A stretch of 64,000 bases of DNA from assembly GCF_004365575.1 (NCBI RefSeq), contig NZ_SOBG01000006.1:62001-126000 (forward strand), read 5' to 3'. The position numbers were made by a program, and so were the translations under genes. The stretch comes from Hypnocyclicus thermotrophus. GTDB lineage: Bacteria; Fusobacteriota; Fusobacteriia; Fusobacteriales; Fusobacteriaceae. Shown in pieces: positions 7,535 through 45,205 of the stretch (its first letter is position 1; every line of letters starts with the position of its first letter). The notes under the pieces were generated by a model. The model ran no database searches. It was not told the DNA's origin and worked only from the letters and a program-made list of their open reading frames with translations.

Positions 7535-7981
7535 TTATAAATAGGCTATTATTATTGAAATAATTGCAAAAATAATAAGATATATTTCTTCATAAGAATT
7601 TTTTTTATATTTTGTTTTTATTTCTTTTATTATTTCTTTTATAAAAAAAGAAATAATAATATATACTAAAATTAATGTGGTTAGTTTAAAAAAAGTATTA
7701 TTTTCTACTAATAAAAAAGGCAACATCAAAAAAGGTAATGTCAAAAAATCTATTTTATATTTTATAAAAATTGCTAATATTAAAAACAATAAAAAATAAA
7801 TCGAAAAATTAATTTCAGTATTATTAGACAACAATTTATAAAATATCGGTGTTCCTATAAATAAAATAATTTCTTTTTTATTTAAAAACAATTTCTTTTT
7901 ATCTAAAAAAAATTCTATTCCTATTAAATATAAAAAAAAATACGAATTATTTATTAATATTTCATGCATATATTCTCTCAT
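7535..7981 (-). CDS. RnfA-like membrane protein, divergent and without cysteine
   Basis: A 148-residue protein, almost all hydrophobic segments (about five to six). The start HEILINNSYFFLYLIGIEFFL resembles the RnfA/NqrE opening, where NN-x-V-L precedes L-G-I-C-P-F-L-G. The cysteine that binds the intramembrane Fe-S cluster in that family is Glu here, and the protein has no cysteine at all. It is about 45 residues shorter than RnfA. It is the last gene of a cluster in rnf order, and its start overlaps the previous gene by 4 bp (ATGA type). Assignment rests mainly on gene order and weak similarity. No rnfB follows; the next gene downstream is rplU's operon. Confidence 0.5.
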   Translation of the reverse strand: MREYMHEILINNSYFFLYLIGIEFFLDKKKLFLNKKEIILFIGTPIFYKLLSNNTEINFSIYFLLFLILAIFIKYKIDFLTLPFLMLPFLLVENNTFFKLTTLILVYIIISFFIKEIIKEIKTKYKKNSYEEIYLIIFAIISIIIAYL

Positions 7982-8430
7982 GTCTCGTTCTCCTTTTTAA
8001 AAAACAAGAAATTTTCTATAATTTGTCTAATTATTAAAAAAAATATTATTCCTATTCCAGCATTTTCTACATATTTCATCCCAAAAAACATTTCTAGATT
8101 TTTTCTAAAAAAACTTAAAAATATAATTATCAATATATTTTTTAGTACATTTTTTTCTGAAAATTTAAAACTATATAATAAAGAAATCAAAGAAAATATT
8201 AATATGTTTTTATCTAAAGAAAAAATATATATTGTTTTTAATATTTCAACTAATATACAAATAAAAATACTTAATATTAACTTGACTTTATATTCATCTT
8301 TAAAAATTTTAATAAGAAGTAAATTGAAAATATATAATATTAAAAAACCTAAAACAGCGTCTAGACTTGTTTCTAAATTTACACTTCCCATTACTATTAA
8401 CATAACAGCATATTCTGAAAATATTTGCAT
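7978..8430 (-). CDS. RnfE-like membrane protein, divergent
   Basis: A 150-residue polytopic protein in the place of rnfE. The C-terminal stretch NAGIGIIFFLIIRQIIENF recalls the RnfE/RnfA end (G-x-G-F-t-l-x-L-x-x-x-x-x-R-E). The N-terminal MGSVNLETSLDAVLGF is where L-G-L-C-P-x-L-A would be, with Val in place of the cluster cysteine. Only one cysteine remains, in a different helix. It is about 50 residues shorter than the family. It is translationally linked to the genes on both sides (9 bp gap upstream, 4 bp overlap downstream). The reading frame is intact, which argues against a decaying pseudogene. Confidence 0.5.
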   Translation of the reverse strand: MQIFSEYAVMLIVMGSVNLETSLDAVLGFLILYIFNLLLIKIFKDEYKVKLILSIFICILVEILKTIYIFSLDKNILIFSLISLLYSFKFSEKNVLKNILIIIFLSFFRKNLEMFFGMKYVENAGIGIIFFLIIRQIIENFLFFKKENET

Positions 8431-8439
8431 TCAAATCAC

Positions 8440-9768
8440 CTATTCAATATATTTAGTTGCTCCTGCATTTTCTATATCTTTTTTTAAATCTTTTTTATAC
8501 ATATAAGTATATTTTTCAAAATCCTTTAAAATTTTTAACATTATCTTATCAATTGTTTTATTTTCTTTATTTTTCAAGACTCTTAAAAAAAGCTTATTTT
8601 TATCTACTAATTTATACTCATTAAGTATTTCTTTTTTATTTTCATTTTGAATTATTACATTATATATTTTTTTATATAATGATATCCCAACTAATAATTC
8701 ATTCTCTTTGTATTTAACCTTTGTTATATAACCTATCTTATCGCCAAAAATATCTTTTACACTATAATAGATAACTTCACCTTCAATTTTATCATTTCTA
8801 TCTATATAAACCGTTGTTTCAAAAATTTTATTTAAATCACTTGAATTAACTTTTGAAAAAATAGGTATTGATATCATTAAAAATAAAAGTAAAATTTTTA
8901 ATATTTTTTTATAATTAATTTTTTCTCCAAAACTTATTGGCGTACTATTTTCTTCAAAAAAAGGAACTAATAAATTTGAAATTAAAATTGCTATAAATAT
9001 AGAGTCTGTATTTTGAGTATAATAGAATAAATAAAAATTTAAAATTGCTATAAATACAGCATAATAAATCTTTCCTATTTTTGTATATGGTGAATAAATT
9101 GTGTCTGCTGCTAAATACACTAATGAAAATAATAATGGTCCAGACATAATTATCAAATCACTATCATATCCTTTTAATGCAAATAAAACATACGTTACTA
9201 TTATTGTTATTAATGGTATCCTTATTTTTATATTATTTTTTATTTTTAAATAAAAAATTGCTAATATTAAAAGTATTACTCCAAATTCTTTATCATTAAA
9301 AATACCTAAAAATAAATTTTTTTTAATTCTAAAATTATCTATATTATATTTAAAAAGCATTAAATTAATTTTATTAACATTTAATAAAAAAATAGAAAAA
9401 AATAATTTTACTAAAATTACAGGATTTAATAAATTTCCTATTAAATAATCAAAAAAAGATAACATAATTCCACTTAACAAATAGTATTTTATACTTAAAT
9501 TTTGTGGTAAAATCAGCATTAATATTGTTGTTTGATTCAATATCATATTAATATCAAAAACTTCTTTTTTTAAATATTTTTTTATAAATAAACTAAACAT
9601 AAAATATATTGTAAATACTAAAATATATGAATATACAAATTGTTCTTTAAAATAAAATATTTTTATAATAATAAACGGTATTAAAGTAATAAATCTATCA
9701 TTTAACATATTTTTATAACTATATTTTGTTCGAATAAAGGGCGCTATAGATATTTTTAATTTATTCAT
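8440..9768 (-). CDS. RnfD-like membrane protein fused to an RnfG-like tail
   Basis: 442 residues. Residues 1-290 follow RnfD/NqrB: N-terminal ISIAPFIRTKYS, a central GNLLNPVILVKLFF (the G-N-x-x-N-P-A motif), SGPLLFSLVYLAADTIYSPYTKIGKIYY (F-M-A-T-D-x-x-T-S-P) and NLLVPFFEENSTPISFGEK (N-L-x-x-P-l-I-D...FG). The S-G-A-T flavinylation site of RnfD is absent. After FGEK a new membrane helix (about 293-312) leads into about 130 residues resembling an FMN-binding RnfG domain (YYSVKDIFGDKIGYITKVKY, then VGISLYKKIYNVII). The protein ends in NAGATKYIE, a possible relic of the RnfG S/T-G-A-T motif. It overlaps the RnfC-like gene by 8 bp. Confidence 0.7.
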   Translation of the reverse strand: MNKLKISIAPFIRTKYSYKNMLNDRFITLIPFIIIKIFYFKEQFVYSYILVFTIYFMFSLFIKKYLKKEVFDINMILNQTTILMLILPQNLSIKYYLLSGIMLSFFDYLIGNLLNPVILVKLFFSIFLLNVNKINLMLFKYNIDNFRIKKNLFLGIFNDKEFGVILLILAIFYLKIKNNIKIRIPLITIIVTYVLFALKGYDSDLIIMSGPLLFSLVYLAADTIYSPYTKIGKIYYAVFIAILNFYLFYYTQNTDSIFIAILISNLLVPFFEENSTPISFGEKINYKKILKILLLFLMISIPIFSKVNSSDLNKIFETTVYIDRNDKIEGEVIYYSVKDIFGDKIGYITKVKYKENELLVGISLYKKIYNVIIQNENKKEILNEYKLVDKNKLFLRVLKNKENKTIDKIMLKILKDFEKYTYMYKKDLKKDIENAGATKYIE

Positions 9769-11029
9769 CTATTTCCTCCAATTTCTTTTTTAAATAATAT
9801 ATTGTTTCTCTAAGTGGCTGATTAGTTGGACAAATATATTGACAACTTCCACAACTAATACATTTATCAAAATTATATTTTTTTATACTTTCTACATCTT
9901 TCACAGATAAATCTAAAAATTTCAATGGAACTAAATTCATTGGACAAACTTCTACACATCTTCCACAATTTATACATTTATATGATTTTATTTTTTCTGT
10001 TTCTTTTTCATCTAATGCTATTATAGCTTTAGTTTCTCTAAGTACAGGTAATTCAATATTATAAATTGCTTCTCCGTCCATTAAACTATTTATTACAATT
10101 TGTTTGCATTTATTATTGTAATAAAAACAGTATTCTAATATATCTTTTATTTTCATTCCTATCGGAACTAATAAAATAGACGGCTTTTCTATGCCCTTTC
10201 CATTTACTGATACTATTTTTTCAATAACAGGTTTATTCTCTACAACTGCATTATATATATCTAATACACATAAAATATTTAACATCAGTATTTTATGTTT
10301 CGTTAAATCACGCGAATATTTTTTTTTAAATAAATATTTTATTAATAGATTTTCTTTGTGTAATGGATAGAGCTTAGGAACTCTTTTTATAATTACACTT
10401 TTGTCAAAATGTATCTTAAAAAAATTTGACAGCTCTTTATTATTTTCTATAATAATTATAATATTTTCTAATTTAAAAAGCTTGATTATAAAATTAATTA
10501 TAATTTTTAATTCTTTAATTTTTTCATAAATAACTATATTATTTCCATTTAAATAAGGTTCTGTTTCCAATCCATTAATTATGAAATGTTTTATTTTGTC
10601 GTCTTTTAATTTCATAAATTTTTTATATACCGGTGTATTTTTTTTATTAAAATCTATAATACCATAATCTTTTAAAATTTTTAAAAATTCTTTTTTCGTT
10701 AAATTTTCATAATTTTTTCTTTTTTTAAAATTATTTTTTTTATTTTTAATATCAACTTTTATTTTTATATATTTTATTTTTTTATCTTTTTTATAATTCT
10801 TTTCTATTATTTCAATAAAGGTTCCTGCTACACTTGAAAATATAGGAAAATTATTAATATCCTTTGCTACAACTTCTCCCATGTGGATATAATCATTCTT
10901 TTGTTTATAAATAGTATATTTTTCTTTAAAATCAAGAGGAATAAGAACCTCTTCTACATCAAAAAAATGTTCTATTTCAATTTCATCTTTTTCTTTTTTC
11001 CAGTAATGAAGTTCTAAAAAATTTTTCAT
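9761..11029 (-). CDS. RnfC-like iron-sulfur protein, divergent
   Basis: 422 residues that follow RnfC from end to end. Visible landmarks are a barrel-sandwich start (VLIPLDF...HMGEVVAKDINNFPIFSSVAGTF), FIINGLETEPYL (N-G-x-E-x-E-P-Y-L), KLYPLHKENLLI, NAVVENKPVIEKIVSVNG and two intact 4Fe-4S motifs (C352, C355, C358, C362 and C390, C393, C396, C400). The glycine-rich G-G-P-M-M-G segment that binds FMN/NADH in RnfC reads NSLMDGEA, and the N-terminal G-x-P loop is also lost. It heads a four-gene cluster. AGGTGAG precedes the ATG and an extended -10 lies at 11062-11067. RnfC identity is good; NADH oxidation looks unlikely. Confidence 0.8.
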   Translation of the reverse strand: MKNFLELHYWKKEKDEIEIEHFFDVEEVLIPLDFKEKYTIYKQKNDYIHMGEVVAKDINNFPIFSSVAGTFIEIIEKNYKKDKKIKYIKIKVDIKNKKNNFKKRKNYENLTKKEFLKILKDYGIIDFNKKNTPVYKKFMKLKDDKIKHFIINGLETEPYLNGNNIVIYEKIKELKIIINFIIKLFKLENIIIIIENNKELSNFFKIHFDKSVIIKRVPKLYPLHKENLLIKYLFKKKYSRDLTKHKILMLNILCVLDIYNAVVENKPVIEKIVSVNGKGIEKPSILLVPIGMKIKDILEYCFYYNNKCKQIVINSLMDGEAIYNIELPVLRETKAIIALDEKETEKIKSYKCINCGRCVEVCPMNLVPLKFLDLSVKDVESIKKYNFDKCISCGSCQYICPTNQPLRETIYYLKKKLEEIDE

Positions 11030-45000: not shown

Positions 45001-45134
45001 AAAAACCTAGTTAATATATAACACTTAAAAACTCATTTCTAAGTGAAATACACCAACTAGGTTTTTCCACTCATAGTAGGCTATTTACGGTAGCCTGTAG
45101 AGACTTCTGACCTTATTACAGAATTATATGAGTT
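45001..45134 (-). promoter_or_regulatory. Purine riboswitch, guanine class, with terminator
   Basis: On the minus strand the aptamer (45134 to about 45069) has P1 arms ACTCATA/TATGAGT, the conserved core CATATAAT, GTCTCTAC and ACCGTAAAT, and the 3' junction TACTATG. The specificity base (position 74 of the family) is C in ACTATG, as in guanine/hypoxanthine riboswitches; adenine types have U. A terminator follows with arms AAACCTAGTT/AACTAGGTTT and a T-run. The terminator's inner loop contains ATGAGTT, which is complementary to the 5' P1 arm AACTCAT, giving a plausible antiterminator. Ligand would turn the permease off. Confidence 0.92.
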
Positions 45135-45205
45135 ATCTTATTATTTATTTTACGACAAATTATATCATTAATTTTATTTTTTTTCAACACTTCTTACCAT
45201 ATATA

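Follow-up and report, generated by a model that had tools for sequence, protein, structure and literature searches.

The window, a stretch of 64,000 nucleotides (nt) from Hypnocyclicus thermotrophus, carries on its minus strand, at 7535-11029, four genes that resemble part of an operon for the redox-driven complex Rnf: an rnfC-like gene (C), a fusion of rnfD-like and rnfG-like genes (DG), and two genes for short membrane proteins likened to RnfE and RnfA (E' and A'). This cluster is very probably the most derived member of an RnfB-less, Rnf-derived C-DG-E'-A' family of the Fusobacteriaceae. It is well supported that RnfE and RnfA have turned, throughout the family, into what would be a membrane scaffold without cysteines, and that the window copy has been conserved after losing the flavin mononucleotide (FMN) and nicotinamide adenine dinucleotide (NADH) loops of RnfC and both sites of covalent FMN. 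As to function, our tentative choice is a membrane-anchored iron-sulfur (Fe-S) relay or redox sensor, whose state may be passed conformationally to an extracytosolic domain. The whole account, identity and mechanism together, stands at about an even chance of being right.

A cysteine-less RnfE/RnfA-like pair in an RnfB-less family

The four open reading frames are intact and closely coupled: those of RnfC and DG overlap by 8 nt, DG and E' are separated by 9 nt, and E' and A' overlap by 4 nt. The canonical order C-D(G)-E-A, and the lack of an rnfB behind it, had both been noticed in a preliminary description made from the sequence, and both hold. No rnfB is present at the window cluster or at the other loci of the family, and the rnfB of this genome sits in a separate, complete rnfCDGEAB operon (the canonical Rnf, locus L036). 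L037, an NQR-like operon, and L035, a second C-DG-E'-A' cluster, belong to the same genome, and an intact orthologous four-gene cluster (L038) is found in G001, the second species of the genus.

E' (150 amino acids (aa), 7978..8430, minus strand) and A' (148 aa, 7535..7981, minus strand) are shorter than the canonical RnfE and RnfA of the same genome (205 and 194 aa). In the alignment E' has Val, and A' has Glu, at the position of the first conserved cluster cysteine; the second cysteine is missing, so that the shortening and the substitutions first described are confirmed. Canonical proteins keep these cysteines almost without fail (RnfA 87/87 at both positions; RnfE 90/90 at the first and 86/90 at the second), and none of the eight E'/A' family loci has them. 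Among these, L043 and L046 of genus g6 adjoin rplU-rpmA-obgE, as the window copy does, and since these relatives at the same locus are also cysteine-less, the missing cysteines do not reflect decay of the window copy.

The assignment of the two proteins rests on gene order, on their recurrence in the eight-locus family and on profile comparison, as Pfam and NCBIfam searches with E' and A' gave no match. The A' profile matches RnfA over its full length (96.7%, E 3.5e-10; RnfE control 0.1%), and the E' profile matches the C-terminal part of RnfE weakly (17%, E 0.0015; RnfA control 0.06%). AlphaFold2 models had a predicted local distance difference test (pLDDT) score of 67 for E' and 50 for A'; Foldseek returned no significant match for the E' model, and NqrD had the best template-modelling (TM) score among the matches listed. 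A' is probably a relative of RnfA, therefore, and the corresponding tie of E' to RnfE is less certain.

When the E' and A' profiles were run over 98 Fusobacteriota genomes, strong matches were obtained in seven, at eight loci, and the order was always C-DG-E'-A'. A profile scan of the genome contigs with the DG alignment was dominated by canonical RnfD, with no further E'/A' among the loci returned. As read from its genes, C-DG-E'-A' is a Fusobacteriaceae family consisting of RnfC, an RnfD-RnfG fusion and cysteine-less RnfE/RnfA-like proteins, without RnfB. No description of it turned up in a literature search of incomplete coverage, and it is apparently undescribed so far. Together with related C+DG clusters of genus g12, the family forms one clade in the RnfC tree (94/95) and in the RnfD tree (99/99), the latter being affected by long branches. 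Origin from the genome's own canonical Rnf, one way of taking the preliminary description, is rejected by the approximately unbiased (AU) test (p = 0.005).

In the RnfC tree the nearest relative of the window copy is L035 (92/94), although sisterhood to L035 and sisterhood to the syntenic g6 loci are not separated by the AU test (p 0.24). An intact paralogous cluster, so closely related and in the same genome, would suit the rather unlikely alternative that the window proteins are accessory subunits, which join, or help to build or tune, another complex of the same cell, either the intact one of L035 or the canonical Rnf; a complete four-subunit set without cofactor sites also resembles pseudoenzyme partners. 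Weighing on the other side is G001, which has the window cluster and in whose 93%-complete assembly no L035-type cluster was found, an absence made uncertain by the fact that the genes flanking L035 are missing there too.

Loss of flavin and NADH sites, and selection on what is left

The RnfC-like protein (422 aa, 9761..11029, minus strand; 80% identity to its G001 orthologue) passes the TIGR01945 model narrowly, with 247.4 bits against a cut-off of 245.95. Its two [4Fe-4S] motifs CxxCxxCxxxCP (residues 352-401, 9827..9976, minus strand) are intact, with 8/8 cysteines kept and Pfam Fer4 matches. Elsewhere, the loops of the FMN/NADH site (GxGGAxFPT, NAAECEPYLxxDNR, YPQGxEKQL and GGPMMG) are changed or lost. 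The former GxGGAxFPTxxK loop (residues 123-142, 10604..10663, minus strand) is now GIIDFNKKNTPVYKKFMKLK-like, with G135, G137, G138, A139 and F141 (L036 numbering) each substituted in both species and retained in L035; the former YPQGxEKQLI now reads YPLHKENLLI (residues 221-230, 10340..10369, minus strand), and GGPMMG reads NSLMDG (residues 314-319, 10073..10090, minus strand). In 40 other sequences, 72 RnfC columns are conserved at a level of 90% or more; of these, the window protein retains 41 and its L035 paralogue 68; the losses all lie outside the Fe-S part, and every FMN/NADH-site loop is affected. The loops are retained in L035 and in family members outside the window genus. It had been stated that the landmarks of RnfC and its eight Fe-S cysteines were kept, which is correct for the cysteines and not for the landmarks.

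DG (442 aa, 8440..9768, minus strand) is recognisable as RnfD by PF03116 (5e-22) and by a sequence match to the RnfD of structure 7zc6 (E 1.4e-13). At the usual position of the covalent-FMN Thr of RnfD only a shortened linker is found (residues 136-165, 9274..9363, minus strand); the Thr and its linker are lost in both the window and the G001 protein, and 19 of 41 RnfD columns, defined as for RnfC, are retained, compared with 40 in L035. The RnfG-like part (residues 283-442, 8443..8922, minus strand; 84% identity between the species) comprises a transmembrane helix and an extracytosolic domain. It matches RnfG domain profiles weakly (E 0.0013), Pfam finds no FMN_bind domain in DG, and the flavin motif of the RnfG domain is absent.

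What does survive in the D part are Asn115 (9424..9426, minus strand) and Asp222 (9103..9105, minus strand), kept in both species and equivalent to Asn124 and Asp248 of Clostridium tetanomorphum RnfD, which flank riboflavin and mark a proposed Na+ site. Their retention, and proposals that ions cross Rnf through RnfD or RnfA-E (PMC9588780, PMC12174285), would be in keeping with a redox-gated path in which the oxidation state of the RnfC clusters opens or closes a route for Na+ or H+ through D, E' and A'. This we consider distinctly improbable: conduction is purely hypothetical, and the alignment has changes near the proposed gate or FMN contact (Leu240 to Phe, Phe244 to Tyr and Gly237 to Pro).

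The preliminary description noted that the RnfD-like protein lacks an S-G-A-T flavinylation site. The RnfD and RnfG-domain sites are indeed absent, but the missing letters alone prove nothing, as the canonical L036 proteins themselves carry AGAT (DGSAGAT in RnfD, DSFAGAT in RnfG) and the window protein ends in IENAGATKYIE (8443..8475, minus strand). This C-terminus, identical in G001, is a degenerate counterpart of the flavin-tag motifs DGEAGATKSLE and DGEGGAT of the family. Compared with the motif recognised by the flavin transferase ApbE (D-x-x-[S/T]-G-A-[S/T]), IENAGAT keeps the Gly, the Ala and the acceptor Thr, and its Asp is one residue out of register, for which reason flavinylation of this tail is not claimed. 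The tail nevertheless gives some footing to an unlikely alternative, a residual exporter in which electrons would run from a ferredoxin-like donor over the RnfC clusters and the D riboflavin and reach the outside through a flavin, bound non-covalently or, as FMN, joined by ApbE to the Thr of AGAT. Both species retain AGAT including this Thr, and each has an ApbE (the window genome has one); for flavin attachment at a terminus, seven residues with the acceptor Thr as the last are sufficient, and an Asp-to-Ala change in such a motif had a minor effect in one substrate (PMC12052999). Against such export stand the large gap that opens between riboflavin and the outside once RnfD has no FMN site and the RnfG domain no motif, and the displaced Asp, which other family tails keep in place.

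Because the flavin- and NADH-site losses are shared by G001, divergence between the window and G001 measures selection after the losses. From this single species pair, the ratio of nonsynonymous to synonymous substitution rates (dN/dS, or omega) is 0.18 for C, 0.25 for DG, 0.28 for E' and 0.53 for A' (bootstrap 0.29-0.88). It is 0.14 over the former FMN/NADH region of RnfC and 0.17 over the extracytosolic part of DG, and the shortened flavin linker is the sole near-neutral stretch (omega 0.68). The RnfC tree has a long stem for the window copy and its orthologue (1.91) and short tips (0.11 and 0.13), a pattern consistent with a burst of change and conservation thereafter. The many conserved residues lost and the long stem are also what would be expected if a canonical or L035-type cluster were losing function and had been caught before its frames broke; with the losses common to two species, all eight reading frames intact and, for C, DG and E', dN/dS clearly under 1, decay is very unlikely indeed and was rejected. 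The view that the cluster is selected rather than decaying, put forward from the intact frames, is thereby strengthened. The redox losses, as far as they can be read from sequence, fall in two steps, which the preliminary description had not noticed: the [2Fe-2S] ligands in the whole family, and then all flavin sites in the window genus only.

A relay or sensor as the favoured reading

The features that survive are the two [4Fe-4S] motifs, the Asn and Asp residues of the riboflavin/Na+ site (a probable pocket), the membrane scaffold and a conserved outer domain. Cytosolic electrons would reach the two [4Fe-4S] clusters of RnfC from ferredoxin or a partner, as the NADH site is gone. They might then move on to riboflavin at Asn115/Asp222 of the D part, beyond which they would have no further passage by any known route. 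As no known transmembrane electron route remains, an Fe-S relay or redox sensor is favoured, and is ranked ahead of a residual exporter, an accessory subunit and a redox-gated ion path. The redox state of the clusters would bring about a conformational change, to be felt in the strongly conserved extracytosolic domain. A more pointed version seems doubtful: that an Rnf core was converted in two steps into a complex lacking both the [2Fe-2S] cluster and the flavin sites, and that the redox state of the RnfC clusters now works a transmembrane conformational switch, as an ion gate or a signal, instead of electron transfer. Several points tell against the relay or sensor. Sensing is deduced from what is left in the sequence, and the donor, the partner and the target are all hypothetical; E' is tied weakly to RnfE, and its model lacks a significant fold match; the argument from selection comes from one species pair, and within it A' is modestly below 1.

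Known complexes, ordinary family members and the surrounding genes

The cluster resembles Rnf (RnfABCDGE; 7zc6, 9eri, 8ahx) in its gene order C-D-G-E-A, in an RnfC with two [4Fe-4S] motifs, in the RnfD fold with its Asn/Asp pocket and in what would be six-helix RnfA/RnfE-like subunits. It differs, as does the whole family, in having no RnfB, the defining Rnf gene in PMC8238504, in the fusion of RnfD to RnfG and in E' and A' without [2Fe-2S] cysteines; the window copy is also without the RnfC loops and the D and G flavin sites. Five defining features are missing (RnfB, the RnfA/E cysteines, the FMN/NADH loops of RnfC, and the flavin sites of RnfD and of RnfG), so that the name Rnf complex does not suit the window complex, which is nonetheless plainly Rnf-descended. 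The preliminary description of a second, repurposed Rnf-derived complex therefore stands as to repurposing and descent; a mere second Rnf it is not, as RnfB, cysteines and flavin sites are missing and, beside its complete Rnf, the genome also has the NQR-like operon and the L035 cluster. With NQR (NqrABCDEF) the cluster shares the common ancestry of a four-subunit membrane core, but it has no NqrF, and its cytosolic subunit is of RnfC type with Fe-S motifs, not NqrA. The NQR-like operon of the genome (L037:3799-7588) itself has B, C, D, E and F-type genes with no NqrA adjacent, and a search of the whole genome for NqrA (PF05896) gave no match.

Two-subunit Nqr/Rnf-like complexes (PMC8238504, PMC11334425), for which a one-way flow of electrons from NAD(P)H to the outside has been proposed, likewise have a partial Rnf-type set and a membrane subunit without the RnfD flavin site. 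In those, however, the RnfD-like protein is fused to a PF00175 NAD domain and accompanied by a separate RnfG-like subunit, whereas the window cluster has a separate RnfC, an RnfD fused to RnfG, and E' and A' retained; a Pfam search found no PF00175 in any of the four window proteins. The family also recalls multi-flavinylated proteins, and FMN_red proteins that bear flavinylation motifs on C-terminal extensions (PMC11334425, PMC10339131), in the presence of several ApbE motifs in one protein and of motifs on unstructured tails; in family members outside the window genus, however, it is an Rnf subunit whose tail carries the motifs, as bare repeats. Rnf and NQR are currently modelled with the [2Fe-2S] cluster of RnfA/E and the flavins of RnfG and RnfD at the centre of transmembrane electron transfer and ion pumping. 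In a conserved family without the cluster, and a sub-lineage without the flavin sites, nature has in effect separated the requirements of the fold from those of the pump, and the window copy and its intact paralogue in one genome make it testable whether an Rnf core can move ions or signals without electrons.

ApbE-type sites persist in the RnfD part and the RnfG domain of L035 and of the members outside the window genus, VGAS (L035) being one of the variants. Except in L035, the DG proteins of these ordinary members have low-complexity, disordered tails with one to three further ApbE-type motifs; L039, with three copies of DGEGGAT, and L043, with DGEAGAT as its extreme end, are examples, and such motifs are far commoner there than in shuffled tails. 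Tails with repeated DGEGGAT, DGTGGAT or DGEAGAT were seen at L039:6244-7971, L040, L041, L042, L043, L044, L046 and L047, and are candidates for flavin tags that an Rnf-derived subunit carries naturally. Next to the L035 cluster, in divergent orientation, lies a gene for a secreted helical protein with two DGLGGAS motifs (L035:4157-4702, minus strand), and in genus g14 DAQAGAS is found in lipoprotein relatives. Proteins of this kind, small, helical and either secreted or lipoproteins, with DGLGGAS or DAQAGAS close to the mature N-terminus, were noted at L035:4157-4702, L190:1603-1932, L190:2023-2349, L191 and L192. Pfam has no family for these proteins; their motif-bearing relatives turned up in no genome without E'/A', and the proteins are candidate soluble flavin carriers. 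Bare DGxGGAT tails and small secreted DGLGGAS/DAQAGAS proteins together suggest natural flavin tags as a device for electron export. The flavin sites, tail motifs and secreted motif proteins, taken with published electron paths in Rnf (PMC9588780, PMC12174285), suggest that ordinary members export electrons one way from NADH via RnfC, RnfD and RnfG to outer flavins; the path would run from NADH to the FMN and then the [4Fe-4S] clusters of RnfC, on to the RnfD flavins and the RnfG-domain FMN, and finally to tail or secreted flavins.

C+DG clusters without E'/A' occur at L042, L044 and L047 (genus g12) and at L175 (g9), those of g12 being preceded immediately upstream by genes for two or three small secreted FMN_bind-like proteins. 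L168, L169, L170, L172 and L174, from another family of the order, have RnfC and an RnfD-like protein only, without adjacent RnfG, RnfE or RnfA, and this RnfD-like protein has a charged N-terminal extension. Around the window cluster itself, promoter-like sites were no more frequent than in shuffled sequence, and an Rfam search at the cluster gave no elements. A divergent aldo/keto reductase gene lies upstream, and the rplU-ppl-rpmA-obgE group, with a promoter-like sequence of its own, lies downstream. Further along the window, a purine riboswitch aptamer (RF00167, 75.4 bits) is found at 45054-45151 on the minus strand.

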